A stretch of DNA of 33,987 bases from Prevotellaceae bacterium (GTDB lineage: Bacteria; Bacteroidota; Bacteroidia; Bacteroidales; Paludibacteraceae). The position numbers and the translations under genes were made by a program. The notes under the pieces were generated by a model. It had not been told where the DNA came from and made no database searches. It saw nothing but the letters and a program-made list of their open reading frames with translations. Shown here piece after piece: positions 18,004 through 30,116 of this stretch. Within the stretch, counting starts at the first letter, position 1; the number at the start of each line of letters is the position of its first letter. The stretch covers positions 1-33,987 of the forward strand of contig JAISKN010000057.1 of NCBI GenBank assembly GCA_031260925.1. Reading direction: 5' to 3'.

Positions 18004-19587
18004 ATGTCAGAAAAAATAAAAGTTAGTGAAGTTTCAGAAGTGCTTTTAAGGCAACTTGAAGGAATGAGTACAAGCGTGCAGTATGACGAAATCGGCACTG
18101 TACTCGAAGTAGGAGACGGCGTGGCGCGCATCTACGGACTGAACAACGCTGAGGCAAACGAACTCCTTGAATTTGAAAACGGCATCAAAGCCATTGTTAT
18201 GAATCTTGAAGAAGACAATGTTGGTGCGGTGTTGCTCGGCTCTTCGAGCGAAGTCAAAGAAGGCTTTACCGTGAAACGCACGCGCGAAGTGGTAAATATC
18301 GGTGTGAGCGAACAGATGCTTGGGCGTGTGATTAATCCGCTCGGCGAGCCGCTTGACGGCGGCAGCGCAATCGGCGGCGAAAAAATTGAAATGCCGCTCG
18401 AACGTAAAGCACCGGGCGTAATTTTCCGCCAGCCTGTTACCGAGCCGCTGCAAACGGGCTTGAAAGCCATTGATGCAATGATACCAATCGGGCGCGGGCA
18501 ACGCGAACTTATCATCGGCGACCGCCAAACAGGCAAAACCACTATCGCCATTGACACGATTATCAACCAGCGCGCCAATTATGAGGCGGGTGACCCTGTT
18601 TATTGCATATACGTTGCCTGCGGACAAAAAGGCTCAACTGTTGCCTCGATTGTGAATACGCTGCGCGAACACGGCGCAATGGACTACACGATTGTAGTAA
18701 TGGCAACCGCCTCCGACCCCGCAGCAATGCAGTATTTCGCGCCGTTTGCAGGTGCTGCTATCGGCGAATATTTCCGCGACACTGGTCGCCACGCGCTCGT
18801 GGTGTATGACGATTTGTCGAAACAGGCTGTTGCCTACCGCGAAGTTTCGTTGATTTTGCGTCGTCCTTCTGGGCGCGAAGCCTACCCTGGCGATGTATTT
18901 TATCTGCATTCGCGGCTTTTGGAACGCGCAGCAAAAATCATTAAACGCCAAGAAGTTGCGGAGAAAATGAACGATTTACCCGAAAGCCTGAAAAGCAAAG
19001 TCAAAGGCGGCGGCTCGCTTACCGCTTTGCCCATTATCGAAACGCAGGCGGGAGATGTGTCGGCGTATATTCCTACAAATGTGATTTCTATTACAGACGG
19101 ACAGATTTTCCTTGACACAAACCTTTTCAATCAGGGCAATCGCCCTGCGATTGACGTGGGAATTTCGGTGTCGCGCGTGGGAGGCTCGGCGCAGATTAAG
19201 GCAATGAAAAAAGTGGCGGGAACACTCAAAATTGACCAAGCGCAATACCGTGAGTTAGAGGCATTTACGCAATTCGGCAGCGATATGGACGCTGTTACTG
19301 CACGAACTATTGACAAAGGGCGCAAAAACACGAAACTGCTTGTGCAGGCGTTGCACGCTCCGATGACGGTAGAAAACCAAATTGCTGTGCTGTATTGCGG
19401 CACAAACGGTTTGTTGCGGGCATTGCCGTTGGAAAAAGTCGCCGATTTCGAGCGCGAATTTCTCAATATTTTGGAACTCAAACACAAAAACGATGTTTTA
19501 GATATTTTGAAAAAAGGCGTTATTGACGACAGCATAACCGAAATTCTAAAAGAAACGGCTGCGGAAATTATTGATGCAATGAAATAA
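18004..19587 (+). CDS. atpA: F1 ATP synthase subunit alpha
   Basis: [74 protein letters not shown]. Confidence 0.99.
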
Positions 19588-19599
19588 AAAAATACATTT

Positions 19600-20169
19600 A
19601 TGGAAAACTTTAATTATCAAGACAAACACATTTTATTTGTCTGTACGGGCAACACCTGCCGCAGTGCAATGGCAGAGGCTTTTCTCAAAGATGCTTTGAA
19701 GCAGGAAGATATTCCAGAGTTAAAAGGGATTAAAGTCGTGTCTTGCGGCACAGACGCGGAGTATGGATGCTGTCCTTCAATATTTGCGATTGACGCTATG
19801 GCAGAGGCAGATATTGACATACGCAAGCATAGAAGTCAGCCGTTTTCAGAGGATTTAGTTAAAAATTCACTGGCAATTTTTGCATTAGACCAAGTGCATT
19901 TATCAAAAATAGAAAATCGGTACGGTGCTGTTATGCCAGAAGACAGTTATTTGATAACTCATTGGAAAACAATTAATCCGCATCACGGCATATCTGACCC
20001 TTGGGGCAAAACATTTCAATTTTATCAGGAATGTCGAAACAAAATTGCCGATACAATACCGTCAATTTTATTCTTTTTGAGAATGAAATTTTTGCTTAAA
20101 GAAACCGAATTGAACACCGAAAACTCTCAATTTTATAAACCTTATTGCAAAAAAGTGCCTCTTATTTGA
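19600..20169 (+). CDS. Low-molecular-weight protein-tyrosine-phosphatase/arsenate reductase-like protein
   Basis: ILFVCTGNTCRSAMAEAF CX5R P-loop; conserved ISDPWG segment. Confidence 0.88.
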   Translation: MENFNYQDKHILFVCTGNTCRSAMAEAFLKDALKQEDIPELKGIKVVSCGTDAEYGCCPSIFAIDAMAEADIDIRKHRSQPFSEDLVKNSLAIFALDQVHLSKIENRYGAVMPEDSYLITHWKTINPHHGISDPWGKTFQFYQECRNKIADTIPSILFFLRMKFLLKETELNTENSQFYKPYCKKVPLI

Positions 20170-20215
20170 GAAAACAAATATTGTCAAATATATTTGCAGA
20201 ATAAATAAAATTAAC

Positions 20216-20223
20216 TACATTTG
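20216..20223 (+). promoter_or_regulatory. -7 element TACATTTG upstream of TIR gene
   Basis: TAnnTTTG consensus 51 bp before the ATG. Confidence 0.5.
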
Positions 20224-20273
20224 TACAATTTTTTAACTCAAAAAATTAAATGATTAACAAATAAATACAAAAT

Positions 20274-22442
20274 ATGAAAACAAAATATCAAATAATTATA
20301 TTGTTGTCAGTGTTTTCACTGCTTTGGGCTTGTGTAGTTGGTTTATCAAATTCATTTTGGGGATTTGGAAGTGCTGTAAAAACATTTTTTATTTTTCTCC
20401 TTGTTGAAACTTTCCTAACCATATCGGTTTTTGGAGCCAAGTCAATGAATAAATTTCAATTCTTTATGATATTGATGGCGTTATCCATAATTCCAATTTA
20501 TACATTTTTCAAATACGATTACCAGACTGCTGTTGTCGTTGCCATTTATTGTGTTACACCGTTCATATTAATGCTCGTAGATAAACTCCTGCCTAATGAC
20601 CCAAACGAACAAGCCCGTAATACGAAAAGAGAAAATGAGGAAAACTATAGAGAATATGAGTATTTTATATCATTTGCTCCAGAAGACAGAGATATTGCAA
20701 AAAAAATCGCCGAATGTTTAGAGGCTCAAGGAGAGCGTTGCTTGATTTCACCGCACGCGGAGTCTCCTCATTTTATATCTGCAGTAAGAGGTCCCAAGAT
20801 AAATAGAGATGAAGAAAAATTGCTAAGAAAAGAAATTGCAATAAATCTAAAAAAATGCAGGTATTTTCTCTTTGTCAGTTCGGCTTGGAAGTTAAGCAAA
20901 GGAACAGGGGGATACGCCAAAGCGATTCATAGTATTCCCGTCAACGCCTCAAGTCTAAACCATGTAGAAATGTCGATATGGACAAAAAGATATGTTTGTA
21001 CAATTTATATCGCCCGCGTTGCTAAATCTGGAGAGTCTTATAGACTTGAACTACATACATGGGAACCCGCTTATCTTACAATTGGTTATGTTGATGAAGA
21101 TGCCGTTGCTTTCAACGAACAGAAAGAGGCACTCAAAACACAATTAGAGAAATTGTTAAGCAATGGAGTAAAAGACACAACTGATGTACATTTTATGATG
21201 GCAGCAAAAAAAGAAACCAAGCAGGGAATATATGCAGATGTGGATGTTTATGCTTATAGTAAAGAATTTGAGAAATTAGTTGCTGATGAAGTGCGGGCGG
21301 AATTAGGAAAGGCAAATACGCGAAAAAGTTCTCCACATACTTTGGCTTGTGGTGCGAAATTGGAAATAGAACTTCTTTCCCCTAACATTACGATTGAGGA
21401 TAATCGAAAAAAATTCGTCTGGGAAGACGAATATTGTAAAGCAATGTTTCAAATTTACGTTCCAGATAATTATCATAAAGAACAAATTGCATTGAAAGCC
21501 TTTATTTTTGCTGACGATGTTCTAATAGAGCAAATTTCGTCTGCCGTTGATATTAAAAAATTGGATAGCAACCGCAAAATACTTGATGGCATTACAGGGC
21601 GAATTAAAAAATTATTTGTGTCATACGCCAGTGAAGATAGGGATAAAGTAATGGATTGTGTGAAAACAATCAAATCTGTTTCTCCGCAAATGGAGGTTAT
21701 TATTGATGAAGATAGTATTACACAAGAAAAACTTTGTTGGAATCATAAATTGGAGGGAAAAATTACATCTTCAGACGTTTTTTATCTGTATTGGTCTCGA
21801 TATGCGAGCATCTCGGATTTGGTGCGGGAGGAATATAGATACGCGATAAAAAAAGGTGGGGCGGAATTCATTGTCATACACATATTAGAATCAACAGAAA
21901 CACCACCTCCGCTTCCTGATGAATTGTCGGGTTGCAAGCATAATACCGAGCATTTGATGTTGAGAGAAATCAGTACCTTGGAAATAGAAAACTATAATTA
22001 CACAATTAAACTTCATAAATATAATGATATGAAAATAGAAATGGCTCCCCTGCCTAAAGCAGTGTTTATTCTGTTTCTAAGACATGAGGAAGGCATTATT
22101 CTCAAGGAAATAAGTGATTATAAAGATGAATTAACAGCAATATACCAGGTCATCAACAATAGAACAACTGATGAGCAGGAAAATATTCTCAATAATAAAA
22201 CAAATGAAAAGCAGGAAAAAAATATAAACAAGAGTATTGAAAAAATATGCAAACAGGAGTCATTAAATGAGATGATTACCAGAATCAAGGAAGCATTTAA
22301 TGACCCAAAAATAAGAACTGTTGCTGACAACTACTTTATTACAGGAGACGAAAGAGGGGGAGTTAGAAAAATTAAACTTGACAGGAAACTTGTTGTGTTG
22401 CCTGAAAAGTTTAATCGCATACAAAAAGCAAATAAATGTTAA
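20274..22442 (+). CDS. Membrane-anchored protein with two TIR-like domains and an unassigned C-terminal module
   Basis: N-terminal hydrophobic segments; YEYFISFAPEDRDIAKKIAECLEAQGERC (TIR-like 1), IKKLFVSYASEDRDKVMDCVKTIKS...DVFYLYWSRYASISDLVREEYRYAIKKG (TIR-like 2); C-terminal PLPKAVFILFLRHEEGIILKEISDYKDEL...ITRIKEAF...NYFITGDERGGVRKIKL. Confidence 0.8.
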   Translation: MKTKYQIIILLSVFSLLWACVVGLSNSFWGFGSAVKTFFIFLLVETFLTISVFGAKSMNKFQFFMILMALSIIPIYTFFKYDYQTAVVVAIYCVTPFILMLVDKLLPNDPNEQARNTKRENEENYREYEYFISFAPEDRDIAKKIAECLEAQGERCLISPHAESPHFISAVRGPKINRDEEKLLRKEIAINLKKCRYFLFVSSAWKLSKGTGGYAKAIHSIPVNASSLNHVEMSIWTKRYVCTIYIARVAKSGESYRLELHTWEPAYLTIGYVDEDAVAFNEQKEALKTQLEKLLSNGVKDTTDVHFMMAAKKETKQGIYADVDVYAYSKEFEKLVADEVRAELGKANTRKSSPHTLACGAKLEIELLSPNITIEDNRKKFVWEDEYCKAMFQIYVPDNYHKEQIALKAFIFADDVLIEQISSAVDIKKLDSNRKILDGITGRIKKLFVSYASEDRDKVMDCVKTIKSVSPQMEVIIDEDSITQEKLCWNHKLEGKITSSDVFYLYWSRYASISDLVREEYRYAIKKGGAEFIVIHILESTETPPPLPDELSGCKHNTEHLMLREISTLEIENYNYTIKLHKYNDMKIEMAPLPKAVFILFLRHEEGIILKEISDYKDELTAIYQVINNRTTDEQENILNNKTNEKQEKNINKSIEKICKQESLNEMITRIKEAFNDPKIRTVADNYFITGDERGGVRKIKLDRKLVVLPEKFNRIQKANKC

Positions 22443-22490
22443 AATTAAAAAACAAGGTTGTTGAAATTTGGATTGTGTTTTGAAAAGACG

Positions 22491-22498
22491 TAATTTTG
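22491..22498 (+). promoter_or_regulatory. -7 element TAATTTTG upstream of first BspA-like gene
   Basis: TAnnTTTG consensus 61 bp before the ATG. Confidence 0.45.
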
Positions 22499-22559
22499 AG
22501 GCGATATTAAACAAATTAATTTATTAACCGCCCCGCAAGAGGCATAAATCAAATTTATT

Positions 22560-24728
22560 ATGAAAAAGAAAATATTACTTTTTATTACAGTGCTTTTAGC
22601 ACTAAACTCGAATGCACAAACGTGGAATCTTGGTGCAAATGTAACGGCTACACTAACAGAATCTACGCTCACAATTAGCGGTACAGGTCCAATGTACAGT
22701 TTTTGGGACAATCCGCCTTTTGCATCTATGTATGAAGGGCGCGCAGATATTGAAACTATAATTATAGAAGATGGCGTAACTTCTATTGGAGATTATGTAT
22801 TTTGTAGGTTTAGCAACTTAACGTATGTATCTATTCCTGGCAGTGTAAAAACTATTGGCTTTAATGCTTTTTATTTATGTACTGGGCTTACGTCTATTGT
22901 ACTGCCTGAAGGGTTAGAAGTAATTGTTGGGCATGCCTTTTGGGGTTGTAGCGGACTTGTTTCTGTAATATTTCCAAGTACTTTAACACAAATAGGCGTA
23001 GATGCTTTTTATATTTGCCATAGTTTAATTTCTGTAATAATTCCCGAAAATGTAACATATATTGGCAATGGCGCTTTTAAGAGTTGCAGTAATTTAACTT
23101 CTGTTGTTATTTTAGGAGACGAGACATTTATTGACGCTAATGCTTTTCTATCAACGCCGTGGTTAAATAACCAACCAAATGGTGTTATATATGTAGGGAA
23201 AATGCTTTATATATACAAAGGAGAAATGCCTGAAAATACTACTATTGATATTTTAGATGGAACCATTCGAATTTGCGATTATGCTTTATCTGGGTTTACA
23301 GGACTTGTTTCTATAAATATTCCTGCAAGTCTTCATGATTTTCGATATTTTGATTTTCAATCCTGTCCAAATCTTACAGCAATGAATGTTGATATTGATA
23401 ATCCTAATTATAGTTCAATAGACGGTGTGCTATACACTAAAAATCAAGAAACATTAATTTTTTGTCCAAGAGGAAAATCTGGCACACTAATTATTCCTGA
23501 AAATGTTACATCTATTGCTTATTGTGCTGTTCAGTCTTGCAATAATTTATCTTCTGTTGTTATTTCTGACAATGTAACATTTATTGATGCTTATGCTTTT
23601 AATAGTTGTATTAATTTATCTTCTGTTGTTATTTCCGGAGACGAAACGTTTATTGATTCTTACGCTTTTTATAATTGTAGCACTTTGACTTCTGTTGTTA
23701 TTTCTGAAAATTTATCATCTATTGGCTCTGATGCCTTTCTATCAACGCCATGGTTAGATAATCAACCAGATGGCGTCATATATATTGGCAAAGTGCTTTA
23801 TGGGTACAATGGAGAAATGCCTGCTAATACGGCTATTGACATTTTAGATGGCACTGTAAATATTTGCCCTTATGTTTTATCTGGGTTTACAGGACTTGTT
23901 TCTATAAATATTCCTGCAAGTCTTTATGATTTTCGATATTATGATTTTGGCTCTTGTCCAAATCTCTCAGCAATGAATGTTGATATTGATAATCCTGATT
24001 ATAGTTCAATAGAAGGTGTGCTGTATACTAAAAATCAAGAAAGATTAATTTTTTGTCCAAGAGGAAAATTAGGCACACTAACTATTCCTGAAAATGTAAT
24101 AGTTATCGGAAATGGTGCTTTTCAGCATTGCAGCAATTTATCTCATGTTGTTATTTCTGAAAATGTAACATTTATTGAAGATGGTGCTTTTATGTTTTGC
24201 AGTAATTTATCTTCTATCACAAACCGTAGCATTATTCCACAAACAATGAGCAATAATATTTTTTGGTCTATAGATGATATTGAGACAGATACATTATATG
24301 TGTTAAATTATTCGCTTGATTTATACAGAGCAGCCGATATTTGGAAAGATTTTGGAACAATACTTCCGTTAGAAGGTTATTATGCTGTAATCTTTAATAT
24401 AAATGGCGAAATAGCCATAACTCAAACAGTTGTGGATGGTAATAAAGCAACAGAACCAGAAATGCCTCAAAAAGATGGCTATATATTTAAAGGTTGGTAT
24501 AATGGCGAAATTCTATGGGATTTTAATAATGCAGTAAACAACGATATTACTTTGACCGCACACTTTGAGGAAATACCTAATAATATAAACAATGTTTCAG
24601 AGAACTTACCTACATCTTCTATTTATGGCTATTACAATATGATTGGGCAAAAACTGCCAAAAGAACCAGATAACGGTATGTATATTATCTTGTATAATAA
24701 CGGCAAAGCGGTAAAAAAACTAAAATAG
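22560..24728 (+). CDS. BspA-like leucine-rich-repeat surface protein with InlB B-type repeat and T9SS-like C-terminus
   Basis: Signal peptide; LRR_5 units (SIGDYVFCRFSNLTYVSIPGSVKTI); YYAVIFNINGEIAITQTVVDGNKATEPEMPQKDGYIFKGWYNGEILWDFNNAVNNDITLTAHF; C-terminal YNMIGQKLPKEPDNGMYIILYNNGKAVKKLK. Confidence 0.9.
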   Translation: MKKKILLFITVLLALNSNAQTWNLGANVTATLTESTLTISGTGPMYSFWDNPPFASMYEGRADIETIIIEDGVTSIGDYVFCRFSNLTYVSIPGSVKTIGFNAFYLCTGLTSIVLPEGLEVIVGHAFWGCSGLVSVIFPSTLTQIGVDAFYICHSLISVIIPENVTYIGNGAFKSCSNLTSVVILGDETFIDANAFLSTPWLNNQPNGVIYVGKMLYIYKGEMPENTTIDILDGTIRICDYALSGFTGLVSINIPASLHDFRYFDFQSCPNLTAMNVDIDNPNYSSIDGVLYTKNQETLIFCPRGKSGTLIIPENVTSIAYCAVQSCNNLSSVVISDNVTFIDAYAFNSCINLSSVVISGDETFIDSYAFYNCSTLTSVVISENLSSIGSDAFLSTPWLDNQPDGVIYIGKVLYGYNGEMPANTAIDILDGTVNICPYVLSGFTGLVSINIPASLYDFRYYDFGSCPNLSAMNVDIDNPDYSSIEGVLYTKNQERLIFCPRGKLGTLTIPENVIVIGNGAFQHCSNLSHVVISENVTFIEDGAFMFCSNLSSITNRSIIPQTMSNNIFWSIDDIETDTLYVLNYSLDLYRAADIWKDFGTILPLEGYYAVIFNINGEIAITQTVVDGNKATEPEMPQKDGYIFKGWYNGEILWDFNNAVNNDITLTAHFEEIPNNINNVSENLPTSSIYGYYNMIGQKLPKEPDNGMYIILYNNGKAVKKLK

Positions 24729-24875
24729 AAAAAAAGTTGAAACAAAATTGTTTCGTAGCATCTGACTGTGTAGCAAAGACAGTCTCTAACAGGTTTATAA
24801 CTCCTACTATAGTTGTAAAAATCTAAAATTAAACGTTAAAAAAATCAATAATAAACAATTTAATATCTAAACATT

Positions 24876-27704
24876 ATGAAAAAAATATTATTACTCTGCG
24901 TTTGTTTGGTATTTTCGCTCAACATATTTGGGCAAAGCGGAAAATATGAAAAACTCTCGTGGAAATTAGAGAATGGGACATTGACAATTAGTGGAAAAAA
25001 AGATATGCAAAACAGTTTTTGCAAAGTTAATTATTGTAGTGCCCCTTGGTATAAGTATCGCGAAAATATTATCCAAGTTTATATAAAAGATAAGGTAACA
25101 AGCATCGGCAACAATGCTTTTTATGGTTGTAAAAATCTCACGTCTGTAACAATTCCTAATTCTGTTACAAGTATTGGGGAAGGGGCTTTTTATGGTTGTA
25201 AAAATCTCACTTCTGTAACTATTCCAAATTCTGTGATATATATTAGTAGTAGTGCTTTTTATGATTGTAGCAAACTTATCTCTGTATCTATAGGTAATTC
25301 TGTGAAAAGTATTGGATACCGTGCTTTTTATAATTGCAGCAAAGTTACTTCAATAATTATTTCTAATTCAGTAACAAGCATTGAAATGGAATCTTTTGCT
25401 GGTTGCAGTAGTCTTACTTCAATAATCATTGGTAGTTCTGTTACAAATATTGGGGACAGAGTCTTTGAAGATTGTAGTAGCCTAATTGAAATAGATGTAG
25501 ATAGTGCTAATTCTAATTATACATCAAAAAAAGGAGTATTATATAACAAAAACAAAGACTTAATTCAATATCCGACAGGCAAATTGAGATTTGATAGAGG
25601 CGTAGGTGGTATGTTAGCAAAGAATGTTGTATGGAATTTTTCGAATGGTGTTTTGACAATCCGTGGCGATGGAACAATTTCTGATTATTCATTGGGTAAA
25701 TGCCCATGGTATGGTAGGAAAGAAAGTATCAAAAGCGTAATTATTGAAGAAGGAATTAAAAATATAGGAAGCCATTTCTTTTCCCAGTGTAACAATATAA
25801 CTTCTGTCAGTATTCCTAATTCGGTAATAACTATTGGAGATTATGCTTTTAATGGTTGTAATAGTCTTATTTTAATGGACATTCCAAATTCTGTAAAAAG
25901 CATTGGAAATAATGCTTTTTCAGAATGCAGTAATCTTATGCTTGTGACTATCCCAAACTCTGTTAAAAGTATTGGCAATGAGGCTTTTGACGGCTGTAGT
26001 AGTTTATATTCAATAAACATTCCTCCATCTGTAACAAGTATTGGCGATGGTGCCTTTAAAGGTTGCGGTATTAATTCGATAATTATTCCACCTTCTGTTA
26101 CAAGCATTAGAGATTATGCTTTTTATGATTGTAGAAGTCTTACTTCAATAACAATTCCAAATTCTATTAAAAGTATCGGAGATATGGCTTTTGACGGTTG
26201 CAGTAGTCTTACTTCGATAACTATTCCTAATTCTGTAACAAGTATTGGAGAACACGTTTTTGGGTATTGCAGTAGTTTAGATTCAATAACCATTCCAACA
26301 TCAGTTATAAACATTGGTGATGAGGCTTTTAATGGCTGCAGTAGTCTTACTTCAATAACTATTCCTAATTCTGTTACTACTATTGGAAAATCTGCTTTTG
26401 GTGGATGCAAAAAACTTACTTCTATAACAATTCCTAATTCTGTCACAAGTATTGGAGAAAGAGTTTTTAGGGATTGCAGTAGTTTAGATTCAATAACAAT
26501 TCCAATATCAGTTACAAGCATTGGAGATTATGCTTTTAATGGTTGCTATGGTCTTACTTCAATAACTATTCCTAATTCTGTTACAACTATTGGAGAATCT
26601 GCTTTCGGTGGATGCAAAAAACTTACTTCGGTTACTATTTCCAATTCGGTTACTATTATCGGGAATGAGGCTTTTGAGGGTTGTGCTAATCTTATTTATA
26701 TAGATGTAGATAATGCTAATACTAATTATGTATCAGAACGAGGAGTGCTATACAACATAAATAAAACAAGATTAATTAAATATCCAGCAAAAAAAACTGA
26801 AAATACATTTTCAGTACCTAAATCTGTAATAAATATTGAAAATGATGCTTTTCAATGGTGTAGTAACCTTACTTCAATAATCATTTTTAATACGGTAAAA
26901 AGTATTGGAAAGAGTGCTTTTGAAGGTTGTAGCAAACTTGTTTCTGTAATAATTCCCAATTCTGTTACATATATTGGCAATCGTGCTTTTGCAGATTGCA
27001 GCAAACTTGTTTCTGTAATAATTCCTAATTCTGTTACATATATTGGAAATTATGCCTTTGGAGACTGCAGCAAACTTACTTCTGTAATAATTCCTAATTC
27101 TGTTACAGATATTGGAGGTTTGGCGTTTCATAATTGCAATAGTTTAATTTCTATAACAGTAAATAATGCAAATCAAAGTTACTGTTCAGAAAACGGAATA
27201 TTGTATGATAAAAAGAAAACAACTTTAATTATATGTCCAATAAGAAAACAGGGAACGACCCTCGTTATTCCTAATACTGTAACAAGTATTGAAGCCTTTG
27301 CTTTTTATAATTGCAGCCTTACCTCTATTTCTTTACCCCAAACATTAACTACAATAGAACATGCAGCGTTTGAGATGGCAAAACTTAAGTCCGTTACTAT
27401 TCCAAGTTCAGTAACTTCCATTGGGTCTTGGGCTTTTACCAAGTGTCCAAATTTAACTTCTGTTGTTTTTTTAGGAACTGTAGAATATATGGGAGATATG
27501 ATGTTTGCAGATTATTATGTTCCTAAAAATAATCAATGGAAACCAATTCGAGTAGAAGTTAGAAGTAAAGTTCCTTTTAACATTGATTCAAGTTTTCGTA
27601 TTGTTGATTTAGATAAAAGTATATTAATTGTTCCTATGGGAGCAAAATCTGCATATCAAGATGCACCTGACTGGCAAGATTTCGGAACAATTATTGAAAG
27701 ATAA
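24876..27704 (+). CDS. BspA-like leucine-rich-repeat protein (942 aa)
   Basis: Signal peptide [20 protein letters not shown]; more than 20 units of the type [23 protein letters not shown]. Confidence 0.95.
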
Positions 27705-27841
27705 ACAACAAAAAAAACAGATATATTTGCACCATTTATATTATGACAAAGATGGCGTTGATGTTGTGAAGAACACAAATTGGGCTGATATGCACATTTA
27801 ATTATAACAAAATCTATTATTAAAACTAAAACAAATTGAAT

Positions 27842-28627
27842 ATGAATACTGAAAATAGAAATTTAAAAAGCAAGGAGATTCTGGAAGAGATTCGTTGCAT
27901 GATAAATGATAGACGTCCGAATGTAGCCGATGAACTCTATGAAGATTTATGGAAAATCGAGAAAAACGAGGGGGATTTGTCTATAGATGAACAATTGCTT
28001 GTCTCGGAAAACATCAGCAGTGCAGCACTCATTATAGGAGAATTCAAGCAAGACCACATGGATTTTATGGGTCTTAGTAAATGTGTAAAAGATGTGCGTG
28101 TTTTGTGGGAAGAAAATAAAAAATCTGACAACATTACCAAGAACTTCATCGATTTACTGATGGCACTTTTTTATCTCAAACATGTGTTCAAGGAATTTTT
28201 CTATCTTGACGAATATGTCGTGGAAGTACTCGAATTGAGCGAGCAGTATGCGGACAAGCAAGAGATTGCCGAAAAGTCTGCTGTATGTATAGCCAATCTT
28301 GTGGAACTATGCTATAACGGAGTAATCAGTATTGATATTGTCGTATCGCTCATTGACAGGCTCATCGTTATCGCGAAGGCTTATCAAAACAACGCATATA
28401 TCTCTTTGGTATATTTGCGTACTATGGTTACATTTTGCAGTATGATGCAAAGCCACTTTCGACAAGAAATCTATGTAAAATATAATTCGGTATTACAGCA
28501 AAATTTGTGGAGACTGAATCATTTGCCAACTCATGAAGCCTCTGAATTGTATTTTTCTATTAGTGAATGTGGGCTTGCTGGATATGAAAAAAATCCTCGC
28601 CCACCACAAATACAAGTATTCAGTTGA
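27842..28627 (+). CDS. Helical hypothetical protein (possible repeat/TPR-like scaffold)
   Basis: Full-length ORF rich in helix-like segments; ATG at 27842 preferred over TTG at 27836. Confidence 0.65.
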   Translation: MNTENRNLKSKEILEEIRCMINDRRPNVADELYEDLWKIEKNEGDLSIDEQLLVSENISSAALIIGEFKQDHMDFMGLSKCVKDVRVLWEENKKSDNITKNFIDLLMALFYLKHVFKEFFYLDEYVVEVLELSEQYADKQEIAEKSAVCIANLVELCYNGVISIDIVVSLIDRLIVIAKAYQNNAYISLVYLRTMVTFCSMMQSHFRQEIYVKYNSVLQQNLWRLNHLPTHEASELYFSISECGLAGYEKNPRPPQIQVFS

Positions 28628-28655
28628 AATAATATGTGTGCCAACCGAATCTATT

Positions 28656-29186
28656 ATGAAAGAAAAAACATCAGAAAAATGGCTCAAAGAAGGCTATCAA
28701 TATTATAAATGTGCCTACTACAAAGAGGCATCTGAATGTTATGACAAAGTTCTTGAATTAAATCCAACGAACATAGACATTTGGCATAAAAAAGGAGTTA
28801 TTTTTACTAAATTAGAACGGTATGAAGAATCGATACAGTGTTATGATAAGGTAATTGAATTATTGTCAAAAAGCAAAACTGTTTCAATTGATAATCTAAA
28901 AGAAATAGATGTACAAAATAAAAATTACAGCAAACTGTTAGTATTGCGTTATCAATACATAAATTCTTTGGCTTGTAAGGGAAAATATTTATACAAATTT
29001 GACTGCTATCAAGAGGCGATTGAATGTTATGATAAAATTCTCGAAATATCTCCAGATGATGAATATGTACAGAGTTGCAAAGATGATTCTTTATATTTTT
29101 TAAAACTTGATAAAGCAAGAGATAAATATTACAAAAGATACTCGAATCCATCGCCCAAAGTAGATTTGGCAGAGTGTCCTTTTTAA
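28656..29186 (+). CDS. TPR-repeat protein
   Basis: WLKEGYQYYKCAYYKEASECYDKVLELNPTNIDIWHKKGVIFTKLERYEESIQCYDKVIEL and CYQEAIECYDKILEISPDDEYV; ATG at 28656 avoids overlap with the upstream ORF. Confidence 0.85.
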   Translation: MKEKTSEKWLKEGYQYYKCAYYKEASECYDKVLELNPTNIDIWHKKGVIFTKLERYEESIQCYDKVIELLSKSKTVSIDNLKEIDVQNKNYSKLLVLRYQYINSLACKGKYLYKFDCYQEAIECYDKILEISPDDEYVQSCKDDSLYFLKLDKARDKYYKRYSNPSPKVDLAECPF

Positions 29187-29237
29187 TGAAGGACTTGGTA
29201 AAAAAATATAGAAAACTTTTAATAATTGACAAAATAT

Positions 29238-30116
29238 ATGGCTTTAAAAGAAATAAAACAGCGCATTCAGTCGGTTAGTTCGACAAGGAAAATTACGTCT
29301 GCAATGAAAATGGTTGCGTCTGCAAAACTGCGCAAGTCGCAGAAACAGATTGAACACCTTTTGCCTTACGAAAACAACCTTAACTCGTTGCTGACCAACT
29401 TTTTAAGTGCGGAAACAGATAATCTTTCGCCGTTGGCTGCCGAGCGTAGAGTAGAACAGGCGGCTTTGGTCGTAATCAGTTCAAATTCAGCACTTTGCGG
29501 CGCATTTAACAGCAATGTTATCAAGCAAATGAACTCAATGTTGGGTGAATATAAAAATCTGGGCAGCGAAAACATAAAAATTTACCCTGTTGGAAAAAAA
29601 GCGGCAAAGGCGGCTCAAAAAATTGGTTTTGAAATTGAAAATTTTGATGAACTGTCGGAAAAACCGAATTATGACGAGGCATCTGCGCTTGCAGAGCGGC
29701 TTATCAGCGATTTTTTAGAAAAAAAAATTGATAAAGTTGAAATTCTTTTTCACCATTTTCAAAGCAAAAGCCGTCAGGTGCTTACCCGCGAAACATTTTT
29801 GCCGATTACACAAGGCACGGATTACAAATTCGCGCCAGCAAATAAAAATGGAAAGGAACTCAATTACATAGTTGAGCCGAGCCGCGAGGAAATACTTAAT
29901 GTGCTGATACCCAAAGTGATAAAACTGAAACTTTACGCGGCTTTGCTCGACAGCAGCGCGTCAGAACACGCCGCGCGTATGCTTTCAATGCAGATTGCCA
30001 CCGACAACGCAAACGATTTGCTGCAAGACCTCACTTTGCAGTACAATAAATCGCGCCAGCAAGCAATCACCTCTGAACTTTTAGACATCACAGGCGCAAG
30101 TTTCGGAGTTAATTGA
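29238..30116 (+). CDS. atpG: F1 ATP synthase subunit gamma
   Basis: MALKEIKQRIQSVSSTRKITSAMKMVASAKLRK; C-terminal ARMLSMQIATDNANDLLQDLTLQYNKSRQQAITSELLDITGAS. Confidence 0.98.
   Translation: MALKEIKQRIQSVSSTRKITSAMKMVASAKLRKSQKQIEHLLPYENNLNSLLTNFLSAETDNLSPLAAERRVEQAALVVISSNSALCGAFNSNVIKQMNSMLGEYKNLGSENIKIYPVGKKAAKAAQKIGFEIENFDELSEKPNYDEASALAERLISDFLEKKIDKVEILFHHFQSKSRQVLTRETFLPITQGTDYKFAPANKNGKELNYIVEPSREEILNVLIPKVIKLKLYAALLDSSASEHAARMLSMQIATDNANDLLQDLTLQYNKSRQQAITSELLDITGASFGVN

Follow-up and report, generated by a model that had tools for sequence, protein, structure and literature searches.

Among the described bacterial systems closest to the protein analyzed here, Thoeris (ThsB), CBASS (its TIR effectors) and Pycsar (PycTIR) use the TIR as an output domain. 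The protein is encoded within a stretch of DNA of 33,987 nucleotides, the whole of which is referred to below as the window, and its likeness to these systems would lie in the same use of a TIR. Unlike them, its gene has neighbors which, as far as they were examined in the window, do not include ThsA, CD-NTase, STING, SAVED or cyclase genes. When the ORFs of the window were scanned with Pfam, no neighbor from a known defense system was detected. In terms of Thoeris, the ThsB_TIR profile scored 16.8 bits against a cut-off of 21.2, and no SIR2/SLOG protein, as expected of the partner ThsA, was found among the larger ORFs of the window. Similarly, no CD-NTase or nucleotide cyclase gene, which would point to CBASS or Pycsar, was present among the Pfam-scanned ORFs. 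A PADLOC candidate (PDC-S66) was rejected, its match covering only 40 of the 282 profile positions, at the start of the TIR.

Genomic setting of the TIR-TIR gene

The gene (20274-22442, forward strand) is one intact ORF of 722 aa, with an ATG start and zero internal stops. It is present as a single copy in its own genome, an incomplete Bacteroidales assembly of gut type, and a whole-protein query against genome contigs found no relative. The gene is located in a 9.6-kb insertion between atpA (18004-19587) and atpG (29226-30116), a gap that measures 16-333 bp in six relatives. In addition, the insertion carries an LMW phosphatase gene, two BspA-type LRR genes, a Pfam-less ORF and a TPR gene. 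The GC3 values of the inserted genes range from 0.18 to 0.35, versus 0.44 to 0.52 for the atp genes, and no direct repeats of note were observed at the edges of the insertion. The surroundings of the TIR-TIR gene are accessory in character and low in GC, and the atp operon around them is split.

The F-type ATP synthase operon (9401-30116; atpD, C, B, F, H, A and G were identified) has kept its gene order while being split by accessory genes at other points as well: atpD and atpC are interrupted by GNAT and BRO-N genes, and atpH and atpA by RNase H-like and N6/N4 DNA methylase genes. The two BspA-type LRR genes, which are adjacent to each other and directly 3' of the TIR gene (22560-27704), are composed of 23-codon (69-bp) repeats.

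The Bacteroides-type promoter pattern matched six times in the window (3.1 matches expected), which is weak evidence when taken alone. The candidate listed in the table is plausible because it is placed before an ORF with a 104-bp gap upstream.

Table. Features of the TIR-TIR gene and of its insertion, in window coordinates.
Feature	Position	Strand	Basis
Insertion of 9.6 kb between atpA and atpG, holding the TIR-TIR gene	19588..29225	+	atpA-atpG gap in relatives, Pfam, GC3
Candidate Bacteroides-type promoter, TTTG-N19-TACATTTG, 51 bp 5' of the start codon	20193..20223	+	Pattern TTTGN{18,22}TANNTTTG
Four hydrophobic segments, probably membrane-spanning, residues ~4-107	20283..20594	+	Kyte-Doolittle peaks
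TIR1 (divergent; residues ~126-250), carrying two loop insertions	20649..21023	+	Pfam TIR_2 and TIR profile of relatives
E232 codon (TIR1; candidate for the catalytic Glu, of uncertain register)	20967..20969	+	Offset by two columns from the conserved Glu
Middle β-rich domain, residues ~315-440	21216..21593	+	Profile of TIR-linked middle domains
TIR2, residues ~445-552, canonical	21606..21929	+	Pfam TIR_2
E520 codon, putative catalytic Glu of TIR2	21831..21833	+	Glu column in 10/10 relatives
C-terminal module, residues 567-712, unnamed Bacteroidales family, OmpR-like winged-helix layout predicted	21972..22409	+	Family profile, AlphaFold2 model, fold comparison
Module helix with the highest conservation (SLNEMITRIKEAF; consensus NSINEKCxRIREAF), recognition-helix position	22254..22295	+	AlphaFold2 helix 106-119

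Domain organization

From the N- to the C-terminus, the protein comprises four hydrophobic segments, a first TIR (TIR1), a β-rich domain, a second TIR (TIR2) and a C-terminal module. The 19-residue hydrophobic peaks lie at residues ~6-27, 33-56, 61-81 and 84-106, and no Pfam match was obtained for this part of the protein. The full protein had no NCBIfam match, and searches of the PDB sequences, either with the whole protein or with each TIR alone, returned nothing usable.

Pfam TIR_2 (PF13676) was found twice in the whole-protein scan, with an E-value of 9.1e-14 for TIR2. Scanned alone, TIR2 scored 34.6 bits (E 3.1e-8), above the Pfam cut-off of 28, while TIR1 scored 25.7 bits (E 1.7e-5), slightly under the same cut-off. 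A TIR profile constructed from ten relatives gave 77 bits for TIR2 and 14.3 bits for TIR1; the latter score tops all 1000 shuffles of TIR1 itself (best 8.3). The loops inserted in TIR1 amount to 20 residues after the second strand and 15 residues before helix C. In the automatic alignment with the relatives, TIR1 holds H230 in the conserved glutamate column and E232 two residues later; an ungapped match by eye of the pattern S-x-L-x-x-x-E (S226..E232 with S514..E520) would place E232 in register. Judged from these alignments, the presence of one catalytic-looking TIR (i.e., TIR2) is well supported, that of TIR1 as a second catalytic TIR is doubtful, and TIR1 looks degenerate.

The first-pass annotation had described a membrane anchor, two TIR-like regions, a β-rich middle and a distinct C-terminus. 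All four were borne out: the anchor by the hydrophobic segments in residues 6-106, the TIRs by the matches of each when scanned alone, the middle by its profile match (see below), and the C-terminus in that residues 567-712 constitute a real domain, recurrent elsewhere and confidently modeled. Its additional claim, a candidate catalytic glutamate context in each of the TIRs, is supported for TIR2, in which E520 occupies a column that is Glu in 10/10 relatives, and is unconfirmed for TIR1, in which the automatic alignment puts E232 off that column.

A profile of middle domains linked to TIRs, from which the window protein had been left out, gave 46.5 bits for the middle domain here (best shuffle 7.8). 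This domain consists mostly of strands in a low-confidence model; AlphaFold2 on TIR1-β-TIR2, using an alignment with one relative, gave a pLDDT of 37. Elsewhere, homologues of the middle domain are located directly before TIRs, and the β+TIR pair occurs behind an HSP70-like part (L025), kinase-like parts (L026, L027) and pentapeptide repeats (L121), of which the HSP70-like and kinase-like parts were named from reading of the sequence and the pentapeptides were confirmed by Pfam. Fusion to such parts is what an output unit would show. The full TIR-β-TIR order, with two TIR_2 stretches in each case, was detected in a plasmid protein of the cyanobacterium Allocoleopsis franciscana (WP_015211574.1; L133), encoded near a caspase-family gene, and in a protein of an IMG/VR contig (L136). 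Full-length matches to the β+TIR profile were observed in 2 of 395 Bacteroidia genomes, that of the window included (strict E limit of 1e-10). The double-TIR core is a recurring though rare unit and no invention of the window gene.

A full-length relative was absent from the ~1,960 genomes searched (several of them by partial query) and from plasmid and phage collections, and a literature search on such a TIR protein, the coverage of which excluded subscription papers, returned nothing matching. The proposal in the first-pass annotation of an unusual immune architecture is upheld only in part: the TIR-β-TIR order recurs in other organisms, and it is the joining of membrane segments, TIR-β-TIR and a Bacteroidales module that was not met elsewhere.

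The C-terminal module family

The C-terminal module is the most informative part of the window protein. In related genomes, nearly all of the matches to the whole-protein query fell on residues 563-721 (in 18 of 101 genomes), and independent pairwise matches to the module in other genomes reached E-values down to 1.2e-20. The window module matched the family profile A1, of which its own sequence is one row, with an E-value of 1.1e-42 over positions 1-135 of 136. In total, at least 214 module loci were detected elsewhere in a scan with a five-sequence alignment; the 80 that were listed are all titled Bacteroidota, and their genomes come from the rumen, the gut and, in some cases, the environment. 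The distribution is patchy (17 of 247 genomes in an even sample across the order Bacteroidales), with up to four copies per genome. No Pfam match was obtained for the family, and PDB sequence searches with two module profiles returned nothing usable. As identities for the C-terminus, Pfam GDH_C and PADLOC MTase_III were both discarded (E ~0.006, below cut-off or weak, in one protein each).

Members of the family such as L034, L080 (from Prevotella ruminicola), L083 and L116 exhibit 25-51% identity to the window protein over the C-terminal ~145 residues. The usual front end of the family is a ~200-residue region that starts with 'IYIE(N)EYD...NEYI' and is often preceded by hydrophobic helices; in its place, the window protein carries the membrane segments and TIR-β-TIR. 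No TIR was present in the ~100 other family proteins examined, zero TIR genes were detected among the neighbors of 85 family members, and the window gene is the only TIR fusion to the module found. The modules carry a mildly positive net charge (median +2). Recurring neighbors of the module include BspA LRR, vWA-like, ADP-ribosylglycohydrolase and DUF6717 genes, each at no more than 15 of 85 loci; these associations are suggestive and do not amount to a defined operon.

Two further observations concern individual members. On a plasmid of Prevotella sp. E2-28 (L134, 1-12360), a module copy that is missing from the gene table lies in a mostly same-strand run of ADP-ribosylglycohydrolase, DUF296, AAA ATPase and kinase genes, possibly a conflict-type cluster. 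A subgroup of the module proteins (L191, L194 and L197) has another front domain in common, with a conserved cysteine pattern (IGCMND..NK..I..KLRTGDIC..C), unlike the usual front end.

Predicted fold of the module

An OmpR-type winged helix was expected from the sequence pattern, ahead of the fold search. AlphaFold2 modeled the module from 70 sequences with a pLDDT of 87 and a pTM of 0.84, in the order of three short strands, a helix, a long helix, an extra helix, a helix and a two-strand hairpin. In a Foldseek comparison with the PDB, ranks 1-7 were occupied by MtrA, ToxR on DNA, GlnR on DNA (twice), ToxR, ArlR and OmpR. Their TM-scores by target length were 0.54-0.66 for isolated domains, with a best E-value of 0.9, such that none of the matches is individually significant. 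In contrast to the PDB result, a viral fold library produced no consistent match to the module (TM-scores ≤0.39). The model indicates that the module probably has a winged-helix-like layout. Sequence comparison leaves its membership in the OmpR family unsupported: hhalign of the module against 15 OmpR domains of relatives scored 14.9, inside the shuffled null (maximum 18.9), and Pfam Trans_reg_C did not match any of 19 module members.

In the most conserved helix of the module, N, E, R and F are invariant in the 70 sequences, and the front ends of the members are unrelated to one another. Families of regulators usually vary their recognition helix. Because the helix in the recognition position is nearly invariant here, it seems likelier that the module family shares a single target, either DNA or protein, than that it serves many operators.

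Proposed mechanism and alternative readings

Tentatively, and with somewhat less than even confidence, the protein is considered a membrane-tethered TIR sensor/effector with an NAD+-cleaving TIR2 and a C-terminal module that would bind a common DNA site or partner. The four N-terminal helices would anchor it in the inner membrane, with the remainder in the cytoplasm, and the divergent TIR1 and the β domain would act as assembly parts. A trigger would lead to self-association, upon which TIR2 could cleave NAD+ via E520, thereby draining NAD+ or yielding an ADP-ribose signal; a role in defense may be envisaged. The C-terminal module, which appears to have been swapped among Bacteroidales proteins with different front ends, would confer a common binding function, its target, a DNA site or else a partner protein, being the same throughout the family. 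Counted in favor of this sensor/effector were the intact ORF, the hydrophobic segments, the TIR_2 E-values of TIR2 and TIR1, the conservation of E520, the recurrence of TIR-β-TIR, the patchy, multi-copy module with its varied and often hydrophobic front ends, the pLDDT of its model, the OmpR/PhoB/ToxR-type proteins at PDB ranks 1-7 and the low-GC, split-operon setting. Counted against it were the zero known defense neighbors in the window, a TIR1 without a clear catalytic column, the individual insignificance of the fold matches, the profile comparison within the shuffled null and the low pLDDT of TIR-β-TIR.

The main rival is a one-component transcription regulator that is anchored in the membrane like ToxR or CadC and the winged helix of which would bind promoters; TIR-β-TIR would provide a ligand-binding or oligomerization input instead of killing. 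The fold matches to DNA-bound ToxR and GlnR and to the OmpR, ArlR and MtrA domains are consistent with this arrangement, as are the often hydrophobic N-termini and variable front ends of the family, both as in regulators, and the mildly positive modules. However, their net charge is small, no sequence link to OmpR was obtained, the would-be recognition helix lacks the variation usual in regulator families and TIR2 retains its catalytic glutamate; a regulator of this kind is possible but rather improbable. A version in which the TIRs are coupled to a ToxR-like winged helix that belongs to a new family and is anchored in the membrane, such that a TIR event at the membrane alters transcription, with the module swapped among many Bacteroidales sensors, is unlikely.

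The retention of E520 and its context in TIR2, as in all ten relatives, also argues against a non-catalytic scaffold, in which both TIRs would only assemble and the C-terminal module would recruit a partner, although TIR1 is degenerate and the module, exchanged between proteins as a common part, has a conserved face. There is precedent for such a scaffold in the EAD-like adaptor logic of bacterial conflict systems, in which one adaptor on many effectors has been documented (PMC8195603), and the scaffold is assigned a low probability. It is still less probable, and indeed quite unlikely, that the gene is a chance fusion or is being lost, without coherent function. Such an origin would fit its single copy, the lack of a full-length relative in the collections searched, the weakness of TIR1 and the metagenome quality of the genome; against it stand 722 stop-free codons, family-level conservation in all of the parts and a module in which the conserved residues are mostly retained.

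The undescribed module family is the most interesting part of the window protein. The predicted fold suggests a connection, via this protein, between a membrane TIR signal and either DNA or a shared partner, and a TIR pair is joined here to a domain that ends hundreds of unnamed Bacteroidales proteins. The binding target of the module, once found, would explain a whole uncharacterized gut and rumen family and would show whether TIR signaling in Bacteroidota can act via a membrane-bound DNA-binding module or an adaptor module. Through the TIR fusion, a family otherwise without any assayable handle gains one, in the form of NAD+ cleavage and toxicity.

Comparison with known proteins

Among the proteins with Pfam TIR_2, the window protein has a typical TIR2 with the conserved glutamate and, in TIR1, a divergent member. 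It differs from them in having two TIRs per chain together with membrane segments, and its C-terminal module was seen in no other TIR protein of this analysis. WP_015211574.1 and the IMG/VR protein follow the order of the window protein, with a divergent TIR at the N-terminus, then a β domain and then a canonical TIR at the C-terminus, but are without a window-like N-terminal hydrophobic run and without the C-terminal module. Conversely, the members of the unnamed Bacteroidales family share the C-terminal ~145 residues and differ in front, where they carry the ~200-residue region, often with hydrophobic helices, and sometimes TPRs after the module. In the case of the OmpR/PhoB winged helix, including its membrane-bound version ToxR, the likeness lies in the way strands, helices and wing are predicted to follow one another and in the top PDB matches, whereas the module model has an additional helix, inserted after the second helix and before the recognition-like one, and a sequence relationship is undetectable. 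The TIR domains, the TIR-β-TIR cores and the Bacteroidales module are each present elsewhere; their combination with membrane segments was met only in the window protein among the collections searched.
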